Positions 12,788-32,998 of a stretch of 64,000 nucleotides of DNA are shown piece after piece. Origin of the DNA: Thermoplasmata archaeon (GTDB lineage Archaea > Thermoplasmatota > Thermoplasmata > Lutacidiplasmatales > UBA184). How positions within the stretch are numbered: the stretch's first letter is position 1; every line of letters starts with the position of its first letter. A program made the translations under genes and the position numbers. A model generated the notes under the pieces. It ran no database searches and was not told the DNA's origin. It saw only the letters and a list, made by a program, of their open reading frames with translations. The DNA lies in contig DAHUZP010000026.1 in the NCBI GenBank assembly GCA_027306505.1, forward strand, positions 62,001 to 126,000, written 5' to 3'.

Positions 12788-13267
12788 TCAGAAGCGCCGG
12801 GGAGAATCCCCGTCGCCACCGCGGTCACGGCCGTAGCCGCCGCGGCCGCCGAAGCCTCCGCCACCGCCGCCGCCGCCGCCACCGCCACCGAAGTAGCGGC
12901 GCTCGGACTGGAACTCCTGCGCGCTCATGTCGAGGGAGGTGTTGACCCCGGCGATGGCCTCCTGCGACTTGTTGAGGTTGCCGTAGCGTCCGACGTTGAG
13001 GCGGATGTGGCCCCGGACGAGGGACACGTATCCGTTGTCGATGAGCACGATGTCGTCCTTCGCGATCTGGCCGATCTGGTCGTTCCAGAGCGAGAGGGTG
13101 ACGCAGGCGGTGTCATCGCCGACCACGGCCTCAGCGACCTTTCGGGGGTCGCCGTACTTACCCATCACTTCCTTGGCGTCTCCGACGGAGACCACCTTGG
13201 CGAGGATGTTCACTTGCTTCGAGCTCGGCGTCAGGTCCTTCACTTTGGTCAGGGGCTTGTCTACCAT
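12788..13267 (-). CDS. Single-stranded DNA-binding protein, single OB fold (SOSS-B/hSSB1 type)
   Basis: A short archaeal SSB protecting ssDNA in replication and repair. Residues 1-105 form one OB fold in the SOSS-B pattern: VKDLTPSSKQVNILAKVVSVG, then AEAVVGDDTACVTLSLWNDQ, IVLIDNGYVSLVRGHIRLNVGRYG. The remaining tail is disordered and contains a 12-glycine run followed by FGGRGGYGRDRGG and the end SPRRF, like the Gly-rich tails of SSBs that mediate protein contacts. The frame is open to 13351, but family similarity begins at the ATG 13267 (159 residues), which is preceded by GAAGGAAA. A candidate TATA element, CAAATACTC, lies near 13440-13450, which would imply a long leader of roughly 150 bases. 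Confidence 0.85.
   Translation of the reverse strand: MVDKPLTKVKDLTPSSKQVNILAKVVSVGDAKEVMGKYGDPRKVAEAVVGDDTACVTLSLWNDQIGQIAKDDIVLIDNGYVSLVRGHIRLNVGRYGNLNKSQEAIAGVNTSLDMSAQEFQSERRYFGGGGGGGGGGGGFGGRGGYGRDRGGDGDSPRRF
12856..12891. repeat. GGC/GGT trinucleotide run encoding polyglycine
   Basis: A run of CCG/CCA triplets on the plus strand encodes twelve consecutive glycines in the SSB tail. Such tracts expand and contract easily, so tail length may vary among strains. Confidence 0.7.
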
Positions 13268-15235: not shown

Positions 15236-18200
15236 ATGTCCCCGCCCAACTGCCGCCGAACGCTCGCGCCCCTCGCCCCGCTGACGATCCTGCTGCCCCT
15301 CGCCTTGATCACGACCGTCCTGTTGCCCGGGGGTGGGATCGGCGCCGGCACGTGGGTCTCCCCCCAGGCTCCCACGGCAGGGACCGACCCCGTGCAGCTA
15401 CCCCACGCCGGCGGCGGCGCGCCGGACGCCCCTGCGGGCGGTCCCTACGGGGTCGCCGCCATCACGCCACCCTTCCCCACCGTCGAAGTGGGCGGCTCCG
15501 TCCCGCTCACGGTCAGCCTCGCTACCCAGCCAGGCTACCCTACGGCCTTCCTGTTGGGGGAGTCCTGGACCCTGTCGCCCTCCGCTCCCGCGGAACTCGC
15601 GAGCTCCGACCAGGTCTCGGCCACCTTCTACGCGACCAGCGTCAGCTCTGCCACCATCGTCACGGTGTCGGTCTCGGTGAGCGCGGTGATCCCGCAAAAC
15701 TTCCCCATCTTCTTCACGGCGGTCGCTAGCACTTCGGTCACCGTCGTCCCGCCGTTGACCTTGACCACCACGCAGGCGTCCCCCGATCCGGCCTCTCCTG
15801 GGGAGACGGTCACCCTCTCCGGACAGATCGCGGGCGGCGACCCTCCGTACTCGGTCGAGGTGGACTTCGGCGACCAGACCAACGCCCTCCTGAACGCCCC
15901 AGCCCCCGGCCCGATCTCGGTCTCCCATGTCTACGCCGCGGGGGTCTTCCAGCCTCGCTTCCTGCTCTCCGACAGCAGCGGGCAGAGCTTGGTCGCGTCG
16001 GTCCAGAGCTCGGTGATCGTGAGCGCTCAACTGGGAGCGGCGATCCTGGGTCCTGCCGGGGCGGACGAAGGTGACCCCGTCGTGCTGCATGCCAGCGTAG
16101 GCGGTGGCAGCGCGCCCTACTCCTACCTCTGGTCGGACTCCTGGGGGGATACCTCCTACGCCGCGGGTGCATGGGCGCTCACCCCTGGACACGTCGGCAC
16201 CCTCACGGTCCGTCTCACCGTCTCCGACTCCCAAGGTCAGACGTTCGTCGCTCCTCCGGCGTCGTTCAACGTGGCGAGCCCCCCGTCGCTCACCATCTCC
16301 TCCCGCACGGGAGAGGCCGACGTGGGGACCGCCTTCCCCTTCCTGCTCTCGGTCCAGGGTGGCAACGGCCCGTTCGAGGTCGACTGGTCACCGGGCCAGG
16401 GTGCGGAGAGCCAGCAGACCGAGCTCCCCATGGACGGGACCTATTCGGAGCCCTTCACCTTCTCCACACCGGGCCAGCTATGGAGCTCTGGAGAGGTCGA
16501 GGACGCCCTCGGCGTGACGTTCATCACCAGCGGACAGGTGGGCGAGGTCGTCCCCGCTCCACAAGTGGACGTGGGCGCATCCCCCTCGGTCCCTTCCGAG
16601 GGGCACCCCTTCACCCTCACCGGGTCCATCTCCGGTGGCCTCGCCCCGTACTCCTGGGACTGGGTGTTCGGCGGGCCCGTGGCCTCCTCCACGCCCCTTT
16701 CGGGTACCCTCCCGACGGTCGGTTCGGTCCTCTGGAACGGTTCCCTTCCCATCGCCGAGGGGCTGTCGGCCGAGCTTCAGGTCTCCGACGCCTCCGGCGC
16801 CGTGGTCACGGGGAGCTTGGAGCTCGAGGTGCTGGCCCCTCTCCAAGCATCCCTCGCCCTCCAACCGTCCCGGGGTGAGATCGACCGGGACCTCTCCGCG
16901 ACCGTGACGGTCGCCGGGGGCTCTGGCCCCTACGCGGTCTCCGTGTCGGGCTCCGACGGGGAGGTGCAGGCGCTCACCCTGGACGAAGCGGGCGCCTACA
17001 CCTTCGTGCTCCGACCCCAGGCGCAAGGCAACCTCACGGTCTGCGCGCAGGTGACGGACGCTCTCGGACACCAGACCACCTCGACCGCTCGCGTTCCGAT
17101 CGCCCTCGCCTTCCGCGCCCTGGCCTCCCTGAGCTCCAATGCCATCGACGCGGGCGGTCATGCCCAGGTCGCTCTCTGGATGTCGGGCGGCTGGGCCCCC
17201 TTCTCCGGCACCCTCAGCCTCTCCGATGGCCGGAGCTTCCCCTTCCAGGGCCCTTCCTCGACCTTCTCCTTCAACATCTCCTTCCCTCTACCCGGGCCCG
17301 TCGTCCTCTCCTACGAGGTGTTGGACGCGATCGGCGCTTCCTCCGGCGGTTCGGTCGGCGCGACGGTCAATCCGGCTCCCTGGGCGAGCCTCCAGGCCGG
17401 TGCGTCCCAAACGGACGTGGGAGCTCCGCTCGATTTCGTGGTCTCGGCGGGCGGCGGTACGGGGATCTTCCCGTCCGTCCACACGTACTTCGGAGATGGG
17501 GGCTTTGCGACCACCTGGTCCACCGCTCACATCTATGCCCAGGCCGGCACGTTCGAAGCGAACGCCAGCGTCCAGGACTCGGCGGGAGCGATGGCCTCCA
17601 GCGCTCCCGTCACGGTCCACGTGGTCCCCGCCCCACAGGTCGCGGCCGAGATGACCCTCCCCGGGGCGGACCAAGGGGTGGGCGTGCCGTTCGCGAGCCA
17701 GGTGTCGTTCGGCACTCCCCCCTTCAGTTACCGGTGGGACTTCGGGGACGGCGGCGTCAGCGCGGACCCCGAGCCGACCCACACCTATGCCATGGTAGGG
17801 TTCTACCGGGTGACCCTCACGGTGACCGACAGTGCGGGGAGCTCCGTGACGGCGCCCCCCGTGAACGTATCGGTCGCACCCTCGGCGGCCCTCTCCGCTT
17901 CCCTCAATCGGACCGCGCTCGAGGTCGGCACCCCCTCGCTCTTCCAGGCCACGATCCTCGGTGGGGCCGCCCCCGCCCAGGTGACGTGGACCTTCGGGGA
18001 CGGCTCGATGGCCACAGGTCTCGTCCTGAACCACACGTACTCGACCCCCGGGACCTTCACCGTCGTGGCCTCTCTCACCGACGCAGCCGGGGGTCATGCG
18101 GTCGAGGACCTCTCGGTCAGTGTCGCTCCCGCTCTGCACGCGACCGGGATTGGGGACGCGTCGGGCGCCGCCGAGGTCGGCGCGAACCTGCTCCTCACCG

Positions 18201-20713
18201 AGCAGCCGAGCGGCGGGGTCGCTCCGTTCCAGTTCTCCTGGCAGCTCGGGGGGCTCCACGCGGCAGGGGCAGGGTTGACCTCATGGTCGGTCGTGCCGAA
18301 CGCCTCCGGATCGTTCCAGGGCACCGTGACGGTCACGGACGCGGACGGAGCGGCGAGCTCCGTCGACTTCGCGGTCTACGCCGTTCCCGGACTGAGCGTG
18401 GCGCCGGTCCTTCAGCCCAACGTCCCGGAGGCCGGATCGGCCTTCCAGGTCACTGCGGGGGAGTCTGGAGGGGTGCCTCCGTTCACCTACGCGTGGTCGC
18501 TCCCTCCGGCCCTACCGGATCCAGGGAACGTCTCGCGCTGGGAGGGGCAGGTCCCGTCGCCGGGGCCCCTGCCGGTGGGGGTGACCGTGACCGATGCTTT
18601 GGGTAGGGCGGTCTCCGCCTCCCTGACGCTGAACGTGGCCCCTGCCCTTCTCGTGTACGTGGGCCCAGGGGGCCTCTACGCCGATGCCGGGGTTCCCCTG
18701 ACGATCGACGCGGTCGTGCAGGGCGGGGTCGGGAACGTCACGACCACCCTTGCCACACCGTTCGGCTCCGTCCGTATCGGCAGCGCTCCGGTGGTCTTCC
18801 CCACGCCGGGGGTCTTCCCCGTGAGCGTGGAGGCCGTCGACCAGAACGGGGCGGTCGCGACGGCCGTGACGAACGTCACGGTGCATGCGGCACCCGTGGC
18901 CGCCTTCCTATCGCTCCAGCCAACGGTGGCCGTCGGAGCGAGCGAGCTCTGGAAGGCGAGGGTCGTGGGGGGAAGCGCGCCCTACCTGGAGACCTGGAGC
19001 GTCGCAGGGCTGGGCAGCTGGTCCGGGAGCGAGGTGAACGTCACGCTCCCCGAGGTCGGCACCTACGGGGTCACCTTGACGGTGCTGGACTCGGCCGGGG
19101 CGCGTAGCGTCCTGCAATCCAACGTGACCGCGGTCCACGACGCGCTCTCGTTGTCGATGAACGCGAGCGCAGTGGAGGGATTGCTGCCTCTGCAGAGCGT
19201 GGTCACGGTCACGCCCGTCGGAGGAGCCGGTCCCATCGGTCTCACCGTGACCCTGGACGGGAACCCCTGCGCTCCCCCGGTCGAGACGGAGCCGGGGCTG
19301 CCGTGGTCCCTGGCGCTCGACCTCACGGGCGCGGGCCGTCACGTGGTCCTCTTCGAGGCGACCGATGCCCTGGGCGCCAGCGCGAACCGGTCGCTGACCC
19401 TGCGTGCCTACTCTTCGCTCCAGGCTCCCGTGTTCGCCCCGGATCCGGCGGAGACCGGGGCGGGGGTCCCGCTCCTGCTCACCGGCTCCTCTGCGCCGGA
19501 CCCGAACGCGTCGGGCGCGGTCCAGGGGGACGGGGCGCTCGATTGGTGGGGGCCCGATGTCGCTCCCCGGGCAGGGCCCGTGTCGACGTTCCTCTCGGAC
19601 GCCAGCGGGACGAGCGTCGTCGACCTCTCCGAAACGCTCACCGCGACGGACGGGCGGCTGCTGCAGAACCTCACCGAGCCGGTCCCTGTGAACGTCCTAC
19701 CGGGACCGGCCACGCAGATGGCCTTCCCCGGCTCGCGCGTCACGCTGCCTGCCGGGGTGAACCTGTCGGTGGAGGTCGCGGCCCTGGACCGGTGGGGGAA
19801 CCTCAACACCACCTACGAGGGAGCGCTGTCCGCGGGTCTCCTCACGGGCCCCGAGGGAGCCCCGCTCTCGCTGGCGAGCGCGTTCGTGGATGGAAGGGCG
19901 CCGCTCAGCTTCTACGGGACCCGCGCGGGCACGGCGACCTACGCGCTCACCGGAGGTCCCGGACCACGGACCAACCTGTCCGTCGTCTGGGAGGCCAACC
20001 CTCTGCGGGCCGTCCTGCGGCTGCTCAGTTGGGAGAGGTCGGGCTCCTCGCTCCTACTGAACATCAGCGCCCTGGATGCCTTCGGGAACCCGCTTTCGAA
20101 CTTCTCGGTGACCGCGGAGGTGCCGGGGGGCCCCTCCGTCCAGGGCGTCGCCGAGAACGGGAGCCTCAGCCTGATCCTTCCCGGCGCGACCGGGGCCTCC
20201 CAGTTGGAACTCCTGGGTCCGGCGGGGGCGCAGACCACGGTCCTGCTGCCCGGAGGGAGCGATCCTTCCTCCTCGGCGGACATGCTCTGGGTCGCGATGC
20301 TCCTCGGAGGGATCCTCGCGACCGGGCTCGTGCTCTCCTGGCAGAGGCGGAGGTCCCGCCGCTCGAAGGGGGCAGGCTCGACGGCGAAGGGGACCCCCGG
20401 GCTCCTGGAGGCGAAAGGCGCGATGGAGGAGATCATCGCCCAGCTCCCCGGAGAGGACCGGGCCTCCCTGCTGGTCCTCGCCGAGGAGCATGGAATCGCT
20501 CGTCAGGACGCCGAGGAGGCGTTGGTCCTCCTGGAGCGCGACCATCGAGCGGTCCGTACGAACGATCCCGAAGGGGTGGAGCGGTGGGACCCGCCGGTCC
20601 CTAGGGAAGAGGAGCCGATGCGCCCCTTCAACGCCCAGCCTGAGACCTCCCCCTCCGAAGGGGAGGGCTCCGGCCGGGAGCGGGCGGAAGCAGGTCAGGA
20701 GGTGGTCCCATGA
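15236..20713 (+). CDS. Giant PKD/Ig-repeat surface protein with C-terminal membrane anchor and winged-helix-like tail
   Basis: An 1825-residue extracellular protein. Residues 1-40 form a signal peptide (basic start, then a long hydrophobic core LTILLPLALITTVLL). From about 70 to 1500 come about 14 repeats of roughly 85 residues of PKD/Ig type. The best preserved show YRWDFGDGG and VTWTFGDGS with HTYxxxGxFxVxxxVTDSAG. Others are degenerate but keep the APYxxxW and VTDAxG ends. A less repetitive region follows at 1500-1670, then one transmembrane helix at about 1681-1705 (LWVAMLLGGILATGLVL) and a basic stop-transfer. The 100-residue cytoplasmic tail has a helical unit (MEEIIAQLPGEDRASLLVLA, then ARQDAEEALVLLERDHRAVRT) resembling a winged helix. 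The stop overlaps the ATG of the VirB2-like gene (ATGA), so it heads the T4SS-like operon. It is likely an adhesin or S-layer-associated stalk. Confidence 0.85.
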   Translation: MSPPNCRRTLAPLAPLTILLPLALITTVLLPGGGIGAGTWVSPQAPTAGTDPVQLPHAGGGAPDAPAGGPYGVAAITPPFPTVEVGGSVPLTVSLATQPGYPTAFLLGESWTLSPSAPAELASSDQVSATFYATSVSSATIVTVSVSVSAVIPQNFPIFFTAVASTSVTVVPPLTLTTTQASPDPASPGETVTLSGQIAGGDPPYSVEVDFGDQTNALLNAPAPGPISVSHVYAAGVFQPRFLLSDSSGQSLVASVQSSVIVSAQLGAAILGPAGADEGDPVVLHASVGGGSAPYSYLWSDSWGDTSYAAGAWALTPGHVGTLTVRLTVSDSQGQTFVAPPASFNVASPPSLTISSRTGEADVGTAFPFLLSVQGGNGPFEVDWSPGQGAESQQTELPMDGTYSEPFTFSTPGQLWSSGEVEDALGVTFITSGQVGEVVPAPQVDVGASPSVPSEGHPFTLTGSISGGLAPYSWDWVFGGPVASSTPLSGTLPTVGSVLWNGSLPIAEGLSAELQVSDASGAVVTGSLELEVLAPLQASLALQPSRGEIDRDLSATVTVAGGSGPYAVSVSGSDGEVQALTLDEAGAYTFVLRPQAQGNLTVCAQVTDALGHQTTSTARVPIALAFRALASLSSNAIDAGGHAQVALWMSGGWAPFSGTLSLSDGRSFPFQGPSSTFSFNISFPLPGPVVLSYEVLDAIGASSGGSVGATVNPAPWASLQAGASQTDVGAPLDFVVSAGGGTGIFPSVHTYFGDGGFATTWSTAHIYAQAGTFEANASVQDSAGAMASSAPVTVHVVPAPQVAAEMTLPGADQGVGVPFASQVSFGTPPFSYRWDFGDGGVSADPEPTHTYAMVGFYRVTLTVTDSAGSSVTAPPVNVSVAPSAALSASLNRTALEVGTPSLFQATILGGAAPAQVTWTFGDGSMATGLVLNHTYSTPGTFTVVASLTDAAGGHAVEDLSVSVAPALHATGIGDASGAAEVGANLLLTEQPSGGVAPFQFSWQLGGLHAAGAGLTSWSVVPNASGSFQGTVTVTDADGAASSVDFAVYAVPGLSVAPVLQPNVPEAGSAFQVTAGESGGVPPFTYAWSLPPALPDPGNVSRWEGQVPSPGPLPVGVTVTDALGRAVSASLTLNVAPALLVYVGPGGLYADAGVPLTIDAVVQGGVGNVTTTLATPFGSVRIGSAPVVFPTPGVFPVSVEAVDQNGAVATAVTNVTVHAAPVAAFLSLQPTVAVGASELWKARVVGGSAPYLETWSVAGLGSWSGSEVNVTLPEVGTYGVTLTVLDSAGARSVLQSNVTAVHDALSLSMNASAVEGLLPLQSVVTVTPVGGAGPIGLTVTLDGNPCAPPVETEPGLPWSLALDLTGAGRHVVLFEATDALGASANRSLTLRAYSSLQAPVFAPDPAETGAGVPLLLTGSSAPDPNASGAVQGDGALDWWGPDVAPRAGPVSTFLSDASGTSVVDLSETLTATDGRLLQNLTEPVPVNVLPGPATQMAFPGSRVTLPAGVNLSVEVAALDRWGNLNTTYEGALSAGLLTGPEGAPLSLASAFVDGRAPLSFYGTRAGTATYALTGGPGPRTNLSVVWEANPLRAVLRLLSWERSGSSLLLNISALDAFGNPLSNFSVTAEVPGGPSVQGVAENGSLSLILPGATGASQLELLGPAGAQTTVLLPGGSDPSSSADMLWVAMLLGGILATGLVLSWQRRRSRRSKGAGSTAKGTPGLLEAKGAMEEIIAQLPGEDRASLLVLAEEHGIARQDAEEALVLLERDHRAVRTNDPEGVERWDPPVPREEEPMRPFNAQPETSPSEGEGSGRERAEAGQEVVP

Positions 20714-21198
20714 AGGCCAGGTCTCGACGGGCCCCCTCGCGACACCGCCTCTGCTTGGGGCCCCTCGCGGCGGCGCTCCTCTGGCTCGCGATCTTCCCGC
20801 TCCTCTCCGGGGGGGCGGTGGGAGGGACGGCCTTCCTGGGGACGACCACCGCGTCGCACGGGTCGGCCGTGACCTCGATCGGACCTGGCACGCCCTCCGC
20901 GTTTGTCGCGCCCCCCGGCATCGGGCGCACGACCTCCCTCACAGGAACGAGCACGAACGCGACCCAGAACCTCAGCGCGGTCCTGGACCGGGCCGTCCTG
21001 CTCGTCAGCATCGCGGCGGCCGGAGTGATCACTCTGGTCTGGTCCCGCGTCGCCCTCTCCTGGTTCTCGCACGACCCCTCGAAGAAGGTCCAGGCGAAGG
21101 AGCGGGCGCGCGATGCTCTCGTGGGCAGCGCGATCCTGCTCGCGGCCGTGAGCGGGCTCGCATGGGGTCTCGCCAGCTGGGTCCTGACCGGCGTGTAG
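20710..21198 (+). CDS. VirB2/TrbC-like pilin (conjugation-type) candidate
   Basis: A 162-residue protein with the hairpin topology of VirB2/TrbC/CedA1 pilins. A long signal segment (about 18-38) is followed by a Thr/Ser-rich linker and a hydrophobic helix at 94-115 (VLLVSIAAAGVITLVWSRVAL). A short basic loop (HDPSKKVQAKERARDA, 121-136) and a second hydrophobic helix at 136-160 complete it. The two-helix hairpin joined by a Lys/Arg-rich cytoplasmic loop is the diagnostic shape. In the family the protein polymerises into a conjugative pilus or import tube with phospholipid. Sequence identity to bacterial VirB2 is expected to be low, so the call leans on topology plus the following VirB6-, PrgI- and VirB4-like genes. 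The ATG overlaps the stop of the giant surface protein. Confidence 0.65.
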   Translation: MKARSRRAPSRHRLCLGPLAAALLWLAIFPLLSGGAVGGTAFLGTTTASHGSAVTSIGPGTPSAFVAPPGIGRTTSLTGTSTNATQNLSAVLDRAVLLVSIAAAGVITLVWSRVALSWFSHDPSKKVQAKERARDALVGSAILLAAVSGLAWGLASWVLTGV

Positions 21199-21256
21199 GC
21201 CCGCAGCATCGAGCGCTCGGCCACGGGAGAGGGTCGCCGTCAGGGAGGACCGATCC

Positions 21257-22672
21257 ATGGACTACGGGACCGTGGTCAAGGCGATCCTCTTCGCCCTGTT
21301 CGGCGCCCTGACGGCGGCGGTGACCGTCGTCACCGGCCCGACGTACGACCTCCTCTTCGTACCGGAGATGGCCCCCTCGAGCGCGTTCGCTCCCTGGCAG
21401 GGCGGCAACGTCTTCGCCCTCGCGGCCGCCTTCTCGAACACTCTGCTCGTCGAGCTCGTCGACCCAGCGGCGGTGCTGGTGATCGCGGCGGTCGGGATGC
21501 TCTACCTCCTCCGGGCGACGCACCCCACGCCGCGCTTGGCGGGACTGGGTCCGAAGCTGGTGCTGGGGGTGCTCGTCGCGAACCTCGCCCTTCCGCTCGC
21601 CGGGGCCTTCTGGCAGCTCGCGGGGGGGCTCTACCCGATCTTCTACGGCTATGGCGGCGGTGCCTGGCAGGTCTACAACAACCTCGTCGGGCCGGGCGGC
21701 GTGCAGATCTCCTGGGACAACGGGCTCCTCTCGTTCATCGTTTCCTGGGTGCTCTTCGGCCTGGTCCTGCTGCTCGCCTTCCTGGTCGCCTTCCGCAGCG
21801 CTCTCGTGGGGGTGTTGCTCGTCCTGCTCCCGCCGCTCACGCTCCTCTGGCCGATCCCGGGTGCGGCGACCCTCGCGAAGAGAGTGTGGGCCCTCTTCCT
21901 CGAGATGACCTTCCTTCCCTGCTTCCTCGTGGTCCCGCTCGTGCTGGCCGTCGGGTCGACCAACGTGCTCCTCACGCTGGGGCTCTTCTCGGTCGCCCTG
22001 GCCATGCCCCAGATCCTTTCGGCCTCAGGGGCGGCGATCTCCCACGCAGGGTTCCCCAACACGAGCTTCGTGGTGGCGGGCGGTCTCACGCAAGGCGCGG
22101 GTGCGGCGCGGGAACAAGGCGCAGGCCTCCTTCGGAAAGGGGGCTCTTCCTGGAGAACGGGCTTCCACCAAGGTCGCTCATCGGCGGGGGGCTCAGGGCC
22201 CTCTTCGCACGCCTCCGGAGGGCACGCCCCCGTGAGCCCCGGCATGAGCGGGCGCGCATCTCGAAGTGGTGCAGGGGGCGCGGCCGGTCCGGTCCTCTGG
22301 GGGTTGGGTGAGGGGCTCGGAAGCTTGGCACGGGTCCTCGGAGAGCGCACAGGGCGAGCCTTCCCCGCGGCCGCTCCGACCCGAACGAGCGGCGCTCTGA
22401 CGAACCCAACCGGGGGCGTGCATCATGCCCACCACCAACCCCACGAGCAGAGGTGGGAGGGAGACGCAATCCCCCCACCGCTCCCGCCCAGGGAGAGCGT
22501 CCACCACGCTGCACGCTCGCGCTCGACCGGGCCGAGCGAGATGGGAGGGGCTTCCCGTGCCGCCTCTGGCCCAGGGATGCGGCCTCAAGGTGGTGCCCCC
22601 TCCCGGGCGGCCGCGGTCGCGCCGCCCCGACCGCCCGCAGCGAACCGGAAGCACGGTGCCGTGACCGCGTGA
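21257..22672 (+). CDS. VirB6/TrbL-like polytopic membrane protein
   Basis: A 471-residue protein whose first 255 residues are mostly membrane: hydrophobic segments at about 7-27, 51-85, 100-124, 156-179, 183-200, 209-233 and 236-252. Residues 260-471 are hydrophilic, rich in Gly, Ser, Arg and Pro, with a histidine cluster (HHAHHQPHEQ) near 390-400. Polytopic proteins with a long soluble tail in this operon position are VirB6/TrbL/CedA, the inner-membrane channel of type IV secretion systems. The ATG at 21257 has GGGAGGA 10 bases upstream. It lies 58 bases after the pilin gene and just before the PrgI-like gene. The family call is by topology and neighbours, with no diagnostic motif. Confidence 0.6.
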   Translation: MDYGTVVKAILFALFGALTAAVTVVTGPTYDLLFVPEMAPSSAFAPWQGGNVFALAAAFSNTLLVELVDPAAVLVIAAVGMLYLLRATHPTPRLAGLGPKLVLGVLVANLALPLAGAFWQLAGGLYPIFYGYGGGAWQVYNNLVGPGGVQISWDNGLLSFIVSWVLFGLVLLLAFLVAFRSALVGVLLVLLPPLTLLWPIPGAATLAKRVWALFLEMTFLPCFLVVPLVLAVGSTNVLLTLGLFSVALAMPQILSASGAAISHAGFPNTSFVVAGGLTQGAGAAREQGAGLLRKGGSSWRTGFHQGRSSAGGSGPSSHASGGHAPVSPGMSGRASRSGAGGAAGPVLWGLGEGLGSLARVLGERTGRAFPAAAPTRTSGALTNPTGGVHHAHHQPHEQRWEGDAIPPPLPPRESVHHAARSRSTGPSEMGGASRAASGPGMRPQGGAPSRAAAVAPPRPPAANRKHGAVTA

Positions 22673-22689
22673 GCCCGAGGTGACAGGCC

Positions 22690-23595
22690 GTGATGCAGGG
22701 GACCTCCATCGAGCTGCCGGAACGGCTGGGACGTCGGATGTCCCTGGGCCCGTTCGAGGACGTTCGGGACCTGCTCCGCTTCCTGCTCATCGCCTCCTGC
22801 GGCTTCCTGCCTGCCGAGCTCTGGGGCCCTTGGGCCTGGCTCCCTTTCGTGGCCGCGGGAGCGGTCCTCACGTTGATCCGGTCGGAGGAGGAGTCGCTCT
22901 GGGTCCTGATGCACCGACGGCTCGCGTTCTCCCTGAGGGCGCGGTCCGGTCCGGTCCCCACGGGGCTCGTGGACCCGCTGGAGGGAGGCGCGCTGACGCC
23001 CACCTCTAACGGCCTCTTCCCGAAGGCCCGTGGTTTAGCTCCGCGCCCAGGGGCCCCTCCCGCACGAGAGGGGTTCCGCGACTGGCAGATCTTCGAGCAC
23101 GATCCGTGGCCCATCTCGGGCCGGGAACCGGAGGAGCTCCTTCGGCAGTCCTCCGCTCTCGTGAGGACGCTCTCGGGCGTCGCCGGGGAGGTCTACCTGG
23201 TCCGAGCGCCATCGGCGTGGAGCGCGGTCCCTTTCCTCCCTCCTGCGCGGTCTGAGGAGAGCGCGGAGGAGACCCGGCTTCGGCAGAGCTACGCCTCGCT
23301 TCTCAGGAGCTCGGTAGCGGGAAAGGTGAGGGCCGACCTGTTCCTGGCGATCCCCCGGTCCCGCCCCAAGGAGGACCCAGGTCCCCGCGGGTTCACCGAC
23401 CCTCGAGAAGGTCTCGAATCGATGGGCTGGGTGCTACGGACGCAAGGGCCCTCTCCTCGGGCGCCCCTAAGGGAAGGCGGCAAGGGTCGGTCCCGGCCCG
23501 ACCGACCTAGGGCGATCGACACGCGCTCCCGACGGGGTCCCCCCCGCACGCTCTCACGTTCACGTCCGGCGGTGGGATCGGGAGCCTTCCCTTGA
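22690..23595 (+). CDS. PrgI/VirB3-like membrane protein with a long soluble C-terminal region
   Basis: The first 75 residues read as the PrgI/VirB3 layout: a short amphipathic start (IELPERLGRRMSLGPFEDV), two closely spaced transmembrane helices (about 27-42 and 45-63), then a basic segment. In type IV secretion loci PrgI/VirB3 partners the VirB4 ATPase at the inner membrane. Here a further 220 residues follow, with FEHDPWPISGREPEEL, then VRTLSGVAGEVYLVRA and GKVRADLFLAIPRSR. This alternating pattern resembles the N-terminal domain of VirB4/TraC proteins. The downstream VirB4-like protein seems to lack most of such a domain, so it may have been re-partitioned onto PrgI. GTG 22690 and ATG 22693 are both good starts, with GAGGTGA at 22677-22683. 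The stop overlaps the next start (TTGA). Confidence 0.6.
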   Translation: MMQGTSIELPERLGRRMSLGPFEDVRDLLRFLLIASCGFLPAELWGPWAWLPFVAAGAVLTLIRSEEESLWVLMHRRLAFSLRARSGPVPTGLVDPLEGGALTPTSNGLFPKARGLAPRPGAPPAREGFRDWQIFEHDPWPISGREPEELLRQSSALVRTLSGVAGEVYLVRAPSAWSAVPFLPPARSEESAEETRLRQSYASLLRSSVAGKVRADLFLAIPRSRPKEDPGPRGFTDPREGLESMGWVLRTQGPSPRAPLREGGKGRSRPDRPRAIDTRSRRGPPRTLSRSRPAVGSGAFP

Positions 23596-24038
23596 AGGCC
23601 CTCAGCTTTGGGCCGAATGACGGTTCGTCTCTCGGTCCTGGTCGGTCGCTCGAGACCCTCGAGCCTTACGCGGTGATGGTCGCCGTGGTCGTCGGGATGA
23701 TCTCGGCAGGCGGCGGCCCCCACGGCGCCACGCCGCCTCTCGTCGCGCTCTGCTGGGTCCTCTTCCTCTGGGTGGAGGCTGGCGGTACGACCATCGGGGC
23801 CCCCGGTCTCCTATCGGTCCGTCCGTGGGTCCCCTCCCTCCTCTGCGCAGTGTTCGCCGGCGCGATCATGGCGGAGCCGTGGCTCTTCCTGGCACAAGGT
23901 ACCCGGGAGTCGCTCGCGGCGGTCTCGGGGGCGGGCCTGGCCTATCTCCTGCTACCGGTACGGGCCCACGGGAGCAACGCCAGGTGGTCGCTCTCCAGGT
24001 CGACGGACCAGGGAGGGTCCATGAGCGAGGGCGGATGA
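23592..24038 (+). CDS. Small four-helix membrane protein of the T4SS-like operon
   Basis: A 148-residue protein with four predicted membrane segments: about 25-43 (PYAVMVAVVVGMISAGG), 50-66 (LVALCWVLFLWVEAG), 78-93 (VPSLLCAVFAGAIMA) and 103-120 (SLAAVSGAGLAYLLL). A short polar C-terminal tail follows. I recognise no family. It starts at TTG 23592, overlapping the PrgI-like gene's TGA, and its own TGA overlaps the ATPase ATG at 24035, so it is translationally locked between two core T4SS-like genes. The position suggests an accessory membrane subunit, comparable in place to the small CedA2-type proteins of archaeal DNA-import systems. That is an analogy, not homology. Confidence 0.6.
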   Translation: MKALSFGPNDGSSLGPGRSLETLEPYAVMVAVVVGMISAGGGPHGATPPLVALCWVLFLWVEAGGTTIGAPGLLSVRPWVPSLLCAVFAGAIMAEPWLFLAQGTRESLAAVSGAGLAYLLLPVRAHGSNARWSLSRSTDQGGSMSEGG

Positions 24039-25855
24039 CGGACCCTTCGCACGGCCTCCGCGCGCACCCCGCCGTGGCAGGTGGGGGGTCACGGGCCGCT
24101 CCAGCGAGGAGCTCCCGATGGCGCCTCTTCCATGAGCAGGCGCGGGTGCTCCGGATCGGGACCCACTGGGTCGCCCCGCTCCTCGTTCGGAGATATCCCC
24201 AGGCCGTCCCGGTCCCGGCGCTTGGGCCCGTCGGCTCGACGGACCTGAGGGTCCGCACCACCATCCGACTTCGCCCCCAGACCCACGGGGCGGCCCTCCA
24301 GCGCGTGCAAGAGGACCGCGCCCACACGGAAGCGGAGCTCTCGGCGGTGCGCTCCGAGGCCGACCCAAGGTTCGTGCGCCTTCGGCAGGAGGCCGAGGGA
24401 CTGCGCCGCCTCGAGGAGGAGCTCGTGGCGCGAAGGACCCGTTTGTGGGACGTGCTGGTCTCCTGCGAGGGCCGTGGGAACGGTCCGGCGGAAGCGGCCG
24501 CAGAGATCGCTCCCCTGCGCGAGTCGCTGGCCCACCAAGGGTTCCGCTTCCACACGACCTCGTACCGGGCGAGGGAAGCGCTCCGATCCGCTCGGCTCGG
24601 AGGAGACGTGTCGCCCGACCTCTTCCATGCCCTGCCCGAGGAGGGGGTCGCGGCCCTGCTCCCTCTGTGGGAGGACCGGCTGGAAGAGCCTCGAGGGACC
24701 CTGGTGGGGCTCCACGCGCACCACGGCACACCGCTCTTCATGGACCGCTACCGGCATCCGAGCCACTCCTCCGCGATCTTCGGGGAGACCGGCAGCGGGA
24801 AGTCCTACGCATCGGCCCTGGGCTGGATGCGAGCGCGCTGGTTCCACCAGGACCTCTCGGTCTTCGTGCTGGACCCCCTCGGCGGACTGGCCGAGGTCGT
24901 CCGTTCCCTCGGGGGCCAGGTCGTCAGGGTCGGGGACGGAGCGCTGGCGTTGAACCCGTTGGACCCGGCCACGACCGGAGGTGACCTCCGACTGAAGGCG
25001 ACGCAAGTGGGCGTGATGTTCCGTGCCCTCTTCCCGTCGCTCTCCGACGAGGAGGTCGCGTTGCTCGACACCACGCTCTCCAAGCTCTACGTCGAACGGG
25101 CGCGGGACCCCGTGGGGCCGAAGAGCCCGAAGCCCGCCGATCCAAAGGGGAGGGACGGTGGTCGCGGGTTCGAGGCTCCGAGGCTCTCCGACCTCTTAGA
25201 TAGGGTCCGGAGCGCGGAGCCGCGTCCGCAACGGCTGCTCACCTTGCTCGAGCGCGCTACCCAAGGGTCCCTACGGGGGCTCGATCGCCCCACCAATCTG
25301 GACCTCAGCTCTCCTTTGCTGGGCTTCGACCTCTCTTCCGTGAGCAGCGAGGAGCTACCGTTCTTCCTCACGCTGCTGCTGGACCTCATCTACGGGGAGA
25401 TGCGCCGGCGTGGGGGGCCCAAGCTGGTGGTGCTGGACGAGGCCCATTATCTGACCCGGTGCCCGTCGACGGCCCGGTTCCTCGACCATCTGGTCCGACA
25501 CGCGCGTCACTTCGAGAGCGGGGTCGAGCTGCTCAGCCAGGACCCCTCGGACTTCCTGCGGGAGGAGGGGGGGCGGGCCGTGCTCAACAACCTGGACTCG
25601 GTCCTCCTGCTCCGGCTCAAGGACGGAGGGGAGGCGGTCGCCCCGCTCCTGGGACTGGACGACAGCGAGATGGCGTTCCTTCGGCGAGCGGCCCTGCCGG
25701 CCCGGTCGGGTTACTCCGAGGGGCTCCTGCGGCTGGGGGAGCTCCATCTTCCCCTGGCCGTGGTCTCCTCCGCCGAGGAGGACCGGCTCCTTCGGGCGGC
25801 CTTCTCTAGGGAACGGGCGGGGTCCATGCGAGGAACGAAGGGCCCCGAACCGTGA
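24035..25855 (+). CDS. VirB4/TraC-like (HerA-FtsK superfamily) ATPase
   Basis: A 606-residue motor ATPase of the VirB4/CedB branch. Residues 60-170 include a coiled coil (LQRVQEDRAHTEAELSAV, LRRLEEELVARRTRLWD). The motor domain follows, with Walker A GETGSGKS at about 250-257, the strand FVLDPLGG, ALNPLDP, and Walker B LVVLDEAHYL near 463-472. A sensor-like stretch HFESGVELLSQDPSDFL follows, typical of VirB4/TraC. The LNPLD motif after the first beta strands is also characteristic of this group. Length is about 200 residues below bacterial VirB4, mostly missing at the N-terminus. ATG 24035 is chosen because it overlaps the previous stop (ATGA) and the frame upstream of it is shadow. It would power substrate or pilin movement through the membrane complex encoded upstream. 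Confidence 0.8.
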   Translation: MTDPSHGLRAHPAVAGGGSRAAPARSSRWRLFHEQARVLRIGTHWVAPLLVRRYPQAVPVPALGPVGSTDLRVRTTIRLRPQTHGAALQRVQEDRAHTEAELSAVRSEADPRFVRLRQEAEGLRRLEEELVARRTRLWDVLVSCEGRGNGPAEAAAEIAPLRESLAHQGFRFHTTSYRAREALRSARLGGDVSPDLFHALPEEGVAALLPLWEDRLEEPRGTLVGLHAHHGTPLFMDRYRHPSHSSAIFGETGSGKSYASALGWMRARWFHQDLSVFVLDPLGGLAEVVRSLGGQVVRVGDGALALNPLDPATTGGDLRLKATQVGVMFRALFPSLSDEEVALLDTTLSKLYVERARDPVGPKSPKPADPKGRDGGRGFEAPRLSDLLDRVRSAEPRPQRLLTLLERATQGSLRGLDRPTNLDLSSPLLGFDLSSVSSEELPFFLTLLLDLIYGEMRRRGGPKLVVLDEAHYLTRCPSTARFLDHLVRHARHFESGVELLSQDPSDFLREEGGRAVLNNLDSVLLLRLKDGGEAVAPLLGLDDSEMAFLRRAALPARSGYSEGLLRLGELHLPLAVVSSAEEDRLLRAAFSRERAGSMRGTKGPEP

Positions 25856-25902: not shown

Positions 25903-27393
25903 TCACCCGGTGAAGGAGATCCCCACCGTCGCGATCGTCAGCGTCAGGGAGAAGTCGTAGACCGGGATGGTCACCTGGCAGACCGGCGTCCCCTGGAAAC
26001 TGTAGCAGCCACCCACGCTGGCTCCCACGGGGAAGATCTCGGGGTAGCTCTGCGCCCAACTGGCCCAGGCCCCGGGATATTCGGTGGTGATGTTGAGGTA
26101 CTGGGGGCTTACCAGGATCACGTTCCCCACGTTCTGGGCACCGGCCGCCTGGCTCTGGAAGGTGGTGGTCTGCTCGGAGATGAGCCAGGTGCGCACCCCG
26201 ATCATGCCCTGTCCGGCCTCGCGCGGGGCGCTCTTGGGGAGGAACTGGATGATCGTCAGGTTCACGGAGGGCGCGTAGATGCCCCTGGTGATGGAAAGCT
26301 GGGGACCTTGGACCATGGTCGAGTTGTTGCCAGGGTGGCCGGCGACCACCGCCCCTTCCTCATAGGAGAGGGTCTCCGGGGGGATGTAGCGGTTGTTGAG
26401 CGTGTCGGAGAGCCCTGCGAACTGTGAGAGGCCCGTGCTGGAGTACTTGGCCGCGGTGAACGCGCAAGGGATCCACGCCGAGGTGTTCTTCCAACCGATC
26501 TGGTTGTTGTTCCCGTAGGGGTGGAAGGCGGTGGTGTGGTAGGCGGTGGTGTAGCCCTGGCTGTTGAACCAGGTCAGGTTCTGGACATTGTTCACGCTCG
26601 AAGCAGAGGAGATGCTGAAGGCGTCGTCGAGCCCCCACGAGCCTCCCCAGGGGCAGACGTTCTGGACCTGGGGGATGAAGACGGTGTTGACGTAGCGGTA
26701 CTGGCCGGCGGCCCCACCTGAGAAGGTCGCGTTGTAGTAGTCGTAGATCCCGTAGAAGACGATGCCCACGACCGGGTTCGGGGTCGAGGTGCTACCCCGG
26801 TAGTCCAGGTTGAACTGGTCGTGGGTGCCGTAGATGACCACGAGGATGTACCCGCTGCCGGTCCCGGTGATCTGGGTGTTGATGATGTCGGAGGACCCGG
26901 AGATGTTGAGGACGATGTTGTTCCCGCCCCCGGAGATGTGGGGGCTAAGGGTGGTGCCGCTCCCGGTCTGCGTGTAGTAGTAGGTGTTCCCGCTCGCGGC
27001 GCATACCCCGCTCTCCACGCAGGGGCTCCCCGAGGGGGTGGGGGTGTTGGACGTGACCAGCGCGTAGTTCACCAGGTAGCTCGCATTGGCCTCCTGGGGG
27101 GCGTCGGTCATCATGAGGCTCCCCGCGGGGGGGCCCATCGGTGGAACGCCCGGGCCGGAAAGCGAGATGGGGGCGGTGACGGCGACGCGGGAGCCGGGGT
27201 GGCTCACCTCGCTCTCCACGTCCGCTTGGAGCTGCAGGAACTGGTCCTGGACGGCCAGGGTCTGCTGGAACTCCGCCGCCGCCATCTGCACCGGGAAAGT
27301 GTTCGCTAGGTAGGTCGCGATCATCATCACGACCACCAGGATCGTGAACATCGTCCCGACGGCGCTCGCCACCCCGCGCCGGGAGCTCTCCAT
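25903..27393 (-). CDS. Type IV pilin-like surface protein with large beta-rich body
   Basis: The N-terminus has an archaeal class III (prepilin) signal: MESSRRG followed by VASAVGTMFTILVVVMMIATYL, with likely processing after the RRG, then the helix AEFQQTLAVQDQFLQLQADVESE. The rest, about 420 residues, is Asn/Ser/Thr/Tyr-rich with many N-x-S/T sites (SGSSDIINTQITGTGSGYILVV and similar). It looks like a secreted beta-rich body, and the C-terminus ends in a strand-rich TIPVYDFSLTLTIAT segment. Pilin-type proteins of this size serve as tip, adhesin or non-classical pilus subunits. The frame is open to GTG 27552, with ATGs at 27513 and 27492, so the start is uncertain; 27393 gives a normal short pre-peptide. 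It converges on the T4SS-like operon. Confidence 0.65.
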   Translation of the reverse strand: MESSRRGVASAVGTMFTILVVVMMIATYLANTFPVQMAAAEFQQTLAVQDQFLQLQADVESEVSHPGSRVAVTAPISLSGPGVPPMGPPAGSLMMTDAPQEANASYLVNYALVTSNTPTPSGSPCVESGVCAASGNTYYYTQTGSGTTLSPHISGGGNNIVLNISGSSDIINTQITGTGSGYILVVIYGTHDQFNLDYRGSTSTPNPVVGIVFYGIYDYYNATFSGGAAGQYRYVNTVFIPQVQNVCPWGGSWGLDDAFSISSASSVNNVQNLTWFNSQGYTTAYHTTAFHPYGNNNQIGWKNTSAWIPCAFTAAKYSSTGLSQFAGLSDTLNNRYIPPETLSYEEGAVVAGHPGNNSTMVQGPQLSITRGIYAPSVNLTIIQFLPKSAPREAGQGMIGVRTWLISEQTTTFQSQAAGAQNVGNVILVSPQYLNITTEYPGAWASWAQSYPEIFPVGASVGGCYSFQGTPVCQVTIPVYDFSLTLTIATVGISFTG

Positions 27394-32347: not shown

Positions 32348-32998
32348 ATGTCCGACGGCGAGTCGGAGGGGTCGGCGGAGGCTCCTCCCGGTAAGAAATC
32401 GACCCCGTGGTCGGTGAGGAAGATCGTCGAACAGGTGACGGGCCGTCCCCTGGAGTCGATGCAGGACCCTCCGGGCACCCGTCGCGCCCCTCGGAACGCT
32501 CCGAGCTCTGCCCGTGATCTCCCGCTCGAGCGCTACCATGAGGACCACAGCGGTGCCTTGACCGTCCTCGTCGATCCCCGCGAGGAGGAGGACCACGTCG
32601 GGGTGCGCGAGCGCTCCCCCCCCTCCATCCCCACCGCGGCCACGCTGACGCCGCCCAGCCGGGCGGAGGAGGTCCAGATCGACCGCAACCCATCGCTGCG
32701 CGCCTTCCTGCCCGGGTCCCCCAGCCCCTCCAGTTCCGGCCGACAGGGCCGGGGACCCGTTCTACCGATGACCCGTCCCCTGCCTTCCGAGGTCGTCGAA
32801 GAGGTCGAGCGCCTCCGCGCCGAGGAGGGCATAGGCCCCATCCCGAAGTCCGGCGGACCAGGTCACGGCTCCCGAGAGCTGGAGCGCGTGTACCTCTCCT
32901 ATCTCTTGATGCACCTCGACCGTCTGACCGAGCCGGCGCTCAAGTACCTCCGCCACGCCGTCCAGGAGGAATGCGAAGAGCGCGGGCTCATGCCCTGA
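32348..32998 (+). CDS. Hypothetical protein with disordered N-terminus and C-terminal helical domain
   Basis: A 216-residue protein of unrecognised family. Residues 1-20 are acidic and polar. Residues 20-140 are rich in Pro, Ser, Arg and Glu with no hydrophobic core, so probably disordered. The last 65 residues (LPSEVVEEVERLRAEEGIGP, then a helix ELERVYLSYLLMHLDRLTEPALKYLRHAV) look like a compact helical domain. No signal peptide, membrane segment or metal motif is seen. ATG 32348 is chosen from the TATA-like element about 30 bases upstream; the open frame extends back to 31907 but overlaps proC on the other strand. It is divergent from proC and convergent with the universal stress gene. Confidence 0.6.
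   Translation: MSDGESEGSAEAPPGKKSTPWSVRKIVEQVTGRPLESMQDPPGTRRAPRNAPSSARDLPLERYHEDHSGALTVLVDPREEEDHVGVRERSPPSIPTAATLTPPSRAEEVQIDRNPSLRAFLPGSPSPSSSGRQGRGPVLPMTRPLPSEVVEEVERLRAEEGIGPIPKSGGPGHGSRELERVYLSYLLMHLDRLTEPALKYLRHAVQEECEERGLMP

Follow-up and report, generated by a model that had tools for sequence, protein, structure and literature searches.

A conserved, chromosomally inherited type IV secretion locus with unusual parts in a family of Thermoplasmata

Two chromosomal DNA-exchange systems derived from conjugation machines, Ced and Ted, have been described for Thermoproteota (PMC9905601, PMC11868833). Ted (TedA/TedB/TedC; Thermoproteales) comprises a VirB2-type pilin, a VirB6-type channel and a VirB4-type ATPase and has no relaxase, while in Ced (CedA, CedA1, CedA2, CedB, CedD and CedE; Sulfolobales and relatives) the VirB4 N-terminal domain is divided between CedB and CedD (PMC11868833). 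VirB3 homologues have been stated to be absent in archaea (PMC11868833), and a VirB3 homologue has been reported in thaumarchaeal integrative and conjugative elements (ICEs; PMC6563490). On the chromosome of Cuniculiplasma, a cluster of VirB4 and other type IV secretion system (T4SS) components (arCOG04034, arCOG05340, arCOG05369) was noted in 2016, described as components only and with no analysis there of a split VirB4, a pilin or function (PMC5155288). The literature searched, outside of which lay many subscription papers and all bioRxiv preprints, contained no account of a domesticated Thermoplasmata T4SS. Here, we analyse a six-gene operon in a 64,000-nt stretch (the window; contig DAHUZP010000026.1, positions 62,001 to 126,000) that is part of the 2.96-Mb genome of a Thermoplasmata archaeon (G000:C61) and has a GC content of 70%. 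By homology of its VirB2/VirB6/PrgI/VirB4 core, the operon is a T4SS locus: like the Cuniculiplasma cluster it lies on a Thermoplasmata chromosome, and it is real, conserved, owned by its host and equipped with unusual parts.

All six open reading frames (ORFs) that the original prediction had listed as running in one direction are present (Table 1), encoding a large surface protein (the head protein), a pilin, a VirB6-like channel, a PrgI-like protein, a small membrane protein (TM4) and a VirB4-type ATPase. The overlapping stop and start codons it had described are found at three of the five junctions, with 4-nt overlaps at head/pilin, PrgI/TM4 and TM4/VirB4; pilin and channel genes lie 58 nt apart, and channel and PrgI genes ~17-20 nt. 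The same order, proposed to be sought in related genomes, recurs in ~28 fetched loci, mostly with coupled junctions and covering all seven genera of the window's family. Every operon gene is under purifying selection, with ratios of non-synonymous to synonymous substitution rates (dN/dS) of 0.01-0.49 across six species pairs (VirB4 0.10-0.20, channel 0.12-0.32; head protein and TM4 among the least constrained). The recurrence of this order in relatives, together with selection on every gene, argues that the operon is not a chance arrangement. In a protein search of 101 relatives, the VirB4-type ATPase was found in 54 of the 61 family genomes (a count that includes the window's own genome and a partial copy in G051), and in nearly all members of the family the operon occurs just once.

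The operon is chromosomal and vertically inherited, i.e. a domesticated T4SS of the monoderm PrgI/VirB4 kind rather than a mobile element, as follows from its housekeeping neighbours and from a VirB4 tree that groups by genus. It is flanked by a tryptophanyl-tRNA synthetase gene (PF00579), with counterparts in genera g1, g2 and g7, and in g4-g6 by genes read from the sequence as fibrillarin and a hexulose-phosphate-synthase-like protein. Its position is fixed within genera, and no tRNA was found in the window. In the tree, operon VirB4 proteins of g1, g3, g6 and g7 form one group per genus on long branches, whereas the 850-950-aa PrgI-VirB4 fusions of a second, mobile-type T4SS, which occurs in operon-bearing genomes too, show g1 and g3 interleaved on very short branches; these copies jump between the two genera. 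This opposition of genus groups to interleaved mobile copies led us to reject a mobile element. A VirD4-like coupling ATPase lies near the mobile-type T4SS in L063 (TrwB_AAD_bind, 4.4e-10) and in L057. As predicted, the operon contains none, and the coupling-protein family PF12696 gave no match in nine operon-bearing genomes (G007, G008, G012, G013, G014, G018, G028, G038 and G046), while the same search finds the mobile ones. The predicted lack of a relaxase likewise agrees with the absence of PF03432 from 30 genomes (other relaxase families were not searched). Of the features by which a conjugative element would be recognised, a PF03432 relaxase, a coupling ATPase accompanying the T4SS and horizontal mobility were all lacking. 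Viral contigs yielded no close relative of the operon's channel protein, and a plasmid collection held only distant VirB4 relatives (~25% identity), the best of them from Haloarchaea.

The predicted VirB4-like ATPase matches CD1110 (NCBIfam) at 3.2e-39 and TIGR00929 at 1e-17, and the CedD model at 8e-6 only. Its profile matches PDB entry 4ag5 at 2.2e-44 and its motor residues are invariant, as in a VirB4-family ATPase. The CD1110 match begins at model position 198 of 752, and the first part of VirB4 is therefore missing from this ORF, designated VirB4c. Against the fused paralogues of the mobile-type system, the profile of the PrgI-like protein aligns to residues ~4-290 and that of VirB4c to ~310-850. 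On these alignments, the two proteins are the halves of one PrgI-VirB4 protein, and VirB4 is accordingly encoded by two genes that flank the one for TM4. Of the predicted PrgI-like protein with an added domain, the PrgI part stood, but the addition is the first half of the VirB4 N-terminal domain, so that a novel domain is ruled out; we refer to the protein, which starts at a GTG at 22690 or an ATG at 22693, as PrgI-NTD1. Among 27 members, 7 match PF12666, weakly (0.011 at best), and 11 match SCO6880_fam (4e-5 at best), which supports the assignment as the PrgI/VirB3 component. TM4, originally described as a four-helix membrane protein, is a small protein with three to four transmembrane (TM) helices and is probably a membrane partner of VirB4, since VirB4c of L081 begins with a fused, TM4-like multi-helix segment, whereas PrgI-NTD1 is still a protein of its own.

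For the predicted VirB2-like pilin, the window protein matches PF18895 (T4SS_pilin) at 5e-4, below the cut-off (best in the pilin family, 5.4e-5), and the assignment is carried by its homologues: the operon pilin profile matches a pilin of L062 at 5e-21, and the pilins of L062, L057 and L069 score above the PF18895 cut-off, that of L069 also passing TrbC/VirB2. The channel protein has no direct Pfam match in the window; its VirB6-like nature is borne out through L069 and L070, whose proteins are matched by the channel profile and themselves match TrbL/VirB6 (PF04610) at 6.6e-4 and 1.6e-4, below the cut-off. Neither the pilin nor the channel profile matched PDB sequences. Large pilin-like proteins were also seen. 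L062 (8826-13685) carries five tandem VirB2-like pilin genes, four with large N-terminal extracellular domains, which are possible tip or adhesive pilins, and in L078 (6908-8758) a 616-aa protein carries a large extracellular domain ahead of its last 60 residues, which match the VirB2-like pilin. Beside the operon, the reverse strand of the window (25903-27393) encodes a ~496-aa protein whose N-terminus is hydrophobic and resembles that of a pilin, and which has no Pfam family; in the other g1 genomes, a similarly long gene adjoins VirB4.

The head protein consists of a hydrophobic, signal-like N-terminal segment, an Ig/PKD ectodomain, one TM helix (~aa 1681-1701) and a cytoplasmic tail. In the copies examined, save G006, G032 and G046, the ectodomain ranges from ~380 to 1640 residues, followed by one TM helix and a tail of ~80-125 residues; copies that include the gene start also show the hydrophobic segment. 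The operons of G006 and G032 instead begin with a short winged-helix ORF that stands alone immediately ahead of the pilin gene and has neither ectodomain nor TM helix, and at the G046 locus, where VirB4 is also broken, a fine scan detected no head gene. The tails of 24 head proteins match many winged-helix Pfam families (best 7e-5), the PDB entries retrieved by the tail profile are mostly winged-helix regulators, with weak E-values (0.0012 at best), and seven of eight genomes searched contain exactly one strong tail copy, beside the pilin gene. Given the variable ectodomain and the stand-alone ORFs of two species, which keep only the tail, the winged helix is by sequence the constant part of the protein, and the view of it as simply an adhesin-like giant did not hold. 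A role as adhesin only is ruled out by the TM helix with its winged-helix tail and by the stand-alone winged-helix ORFs. Judging by its fold class, the tail would bind DNA. On the opposite strand beside the mobile-type T4SS of L057 (323-5872) lies a gene for another Ig/PKD protein, which has a single TM helix, ends in a winged-helix-like tail and may be a relative of the head protein.

While all six predicted genes are real, a seventh, co-inherited one had been overlooked. In genera g4-g7 it immediately follows VirB4; in the window, as in the rest of this genus, it is displaced and lies ~6.5 kb further downstream, on the same strand, and several g3 genomes carry it on a separate contig. Within the family, 52 of 54 VirB4-positive and none of seven VirB4-negative genomes have it (Fisher p ~8e-8, uncorrected for relatedness or linked contig loss), and its product matched no Pfam family. 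On the other side of the operon, the window encodes on the reverse strand (12788-13267) an OB-fold, single-stranded DNA (ssDNA)-binding-like protein, whose gene in g1 and g7 is found in the vicinity of both the operon and the tryptophanyl-tRNA synthetase gene.

Table 1 Features of the T4SS operon and associated loci (window coordinates unless a locus is named)
Feature	Position	Strand	Basis or remark
Operon, six ORFs	15236-25855	+	order head, pilin, VirB6-like, PrgI-like, TM4, VirB4
Head gene, 1825 aa	15236..20713	+	conserved first gene; PKD_4 1.3e-42, PKD 5.4e-36
Winged-helix cytoplasmic tail of head protein	20333..20710	+	common to all operons keeping the head gene
VirB2-like pilin, 162 aa; signal-like segment, two hydrophobic helices, basic loop	20710..21198	+	PF18895
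VirB6/TrbL-like polytopic channel protein, 471 aa	21257..22672	+	homologues in L069/L070 match PF04610
PrgI-NTD1, PrgI fused to first half of VirB4 N-terminal domain	22690..23595	+	profile alignments
TM4, small protein, 3-4 TM helices, between the VirB4 halves	23592..24038	+	
VirB4c, second half of VirB4 N-terminal domain plus ATPase, 606 aa	24035..25855	+	
Seventh component, soluble protein, 216 aa, new family	32348..32998	+	co-occurrence with VirB4
Second, mobile-type T4SS, PrgI fused to VirB4	G000:C9 (L068), G000:C45 (L067); L057, L063-L066, L071		

The predicted resemblance to Ced and Ted is upheld by a chromosomal pilin-channel-ATPase set that is inherited by the host lineage. Compared with Ted by component types rather than sequence, the operon shares pilin, channel, ATPase and the lack of a relaxase, but contains a PrgI fused to half of the VirB4 N-terminal domain and a split VirB4, adds TM4, the winged-helix head protein and the seventh gene, and has no recognised HerA, Rad50 or ParA genes beside it. 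Like Ced it would be a chromosomal DNA-exchange machine, but where Ced splits VirB4 over two ATPases, one half here is without ATPase and fused to PrgI; the ATPase stands nearer to VirB4 than to CedD, and no CedB and CedD pair was found. The PrgI/VirB3-like part also sets the operon against the stated absence of VirB3 from archaea. With monoderm conjugative T4SSs (MPF-FATA; CD1110-type VirB4, PrgI) it has the VirB2/VirB6/PrgI/VirB4 core in common, yet it lacks relaxase and coupling protein and is chromosomal and vertically inherited. In enterococcal pCF10, the PrgA/PrgB surface adhesin genes lie upstream of the T4SS genes, so that genes for large surface proteins likewise come first, but pCF10 is a conjugative plasmid, and its adhesins are wall-anchored and have no intracellular winged helix. 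The SCO6880_fam matches of PrgI-NTD1 link the operon to the bacterial SCO6880 family and the Streptomyces cmdBCD cluster, with which, we infer, it has the split VirB4 in common; we know of no winged-helix head protein there. The products of the co-transcribed cmdB, cmdC and cmdD, membrane or ATP-binding proteins, resemble SCO6878, SCO6880 and SCO6881, and a type IV-like channel has been suggested (PMC2782261).

Of 293 genomes sampled across the phylum, 25 gave a match at 1e-25, all within the class (families f1, f15, f19 and f23) and mostly as short ORFs; members of f11 match at weaker scores. Loci of f11 and f19 (L069, L070, L082-L084) are reduced to pilin, channel, VirB4 and, in most of them, a PrgI part, with no head protein or TM4, and those examined in f19 are also without the seventh gene. 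L080 (f23) adds TM4 to the reduced set, while G075 (f15) has the full operon set minus the seventh gene, including a head protein with the same tail and five tandem pilins, four of them with large N-terminal domains. In L084 (1946-3865; G189), VirB4 carries two fused N-terminal helices, with no separate PrgI or TM4.

As to function, we favour, with a probability of roughly 0.6 and by analogy with Ced and Ted, cell-to-cell DNA exchange in which the head protein senses or makes contact. After processing, the pilin would be assembled into a pilus or a short conduit resting on the VirB6-like platform, as its family suggests. In PrgI-NTD1, the first half of the VirB4 N-terminal domain would be kept at the membrane, with TM4 as a second membrane anchor and VirB4c as the source of the remainder of that domain and of the motor, in a complex suggested by the split homology. 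Such a machine could pass chromosomal DNA among related cells with neither a dedicated relaxase nor VirD4, and the DNA might serve recombination or repair. The membrane-spanning head protein could meet or recognise a neighbour cell through its variable Ig/PKD stalk, and its constant winged helix could bind DNA, either to regulate the operon while tethered to the membrane or to dock DNA at the pore; we slightly prefer the regulator because two species have a stand-alone winged-helix first gene. The seventh protein may be a cytosolic accessory. Tentatively, the head protein might couple outside contact to the DNA inside, either as a substrate receptor replacing relaxase and coupling protein or as a contact-triggered switch of the operon, with part of the lineage keeping only the winged-helix half.

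Several observations weigh against DNA exchange by a T4SS of this kind. The window's own pilin, PrgI and VirB6 matches to curated models are weak or absent, and AlphaFold2 models of PrgI-NTD1 and the channel, built from two-sequence alignments, reached a predicted local distance difference test score (pLDDT) of 42-43. The VirB4 locus is missing from seven of the 61 family genomes and VirB4 is broken in G046, so that the system is dispensable. Finally, NurA, proposed to supply ssDNA for Ced and Ted (PMC9905601), was not found (PF09376) in eight family genomes (G000, G005, G007, G008, G028, G038, G046 and G052) and matched weakly in G075, with seven of 14 controls positive; the DNA-processing step would therefore have to differ.

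The machine might instead deliver proteins or toxins, exporting effectors into neighbours held by the Ig/PKD stalk. The large variable surface protein in the operon would suit such a role, as would the lack of a relaxase or coupling protein, since relaxase-less T4SSs of Proteobacteria have been argued to be mostly protein exporters (PMC3158045). However, relaxases are rare across archaea, the chromosomal archaeal relatives Ced and Ted move DNA, and no conserved effector- or immunity-like gene accompanies the operon (effector families were not searched systematically), and we therefore consider delivery unlikely. Similarly improbable is an apparatus without transport, i.e. an adhesion or biofilm pilus with the head protein as a surface-sensing, membrane-tethered transcription regulator. 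A winged-helix tail on a transmembrane surface protein, its stand-alone counterpart in two species and the tandem extended pilins of L062 are in line with it; yet in most species pairs the lowest dN/dS values belong to the VirB6 channel and the VirB4 motor, and no intact locus lacks either, a pattern that points to transport, and a pilus alone would presumably not need a channel kept so strictly. A resident or decaying ICE moving its own DNA, to which homology to conjugative systems, coupling-protein-bearing T4SS relatives in the same genomes and the scoring of A. boonei as an ICE carrier (PMC3158045) would speak, is highly improbable in the face of the genus-level tree groups, the single copies, the fixed position among housekeeping genes and the negative tRNA, PF12696 and PF03432 searches.

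The functionally studied domesticated conjugation machines of archaea are those of Thermoproteota, and the DNA-exchange reading, if true, extends the idea to another phylum, with the system in most species of one family and, pared down, in several further families of Thermoplasmata. With it, a domesticated machine gains a PrgI/VirB3-like part, VirB4 is seen split in a second way besides that of Ced, and there are new parts to test: a membrane protein leading from the surface to a winged helix, and a seventh soluble component. As genus g4 holds both operon-positive and operon-negative species, with G025, G036 and G039 among the latter, chromosomal DNA exchange outside Thermoproteota would be directly testable there.

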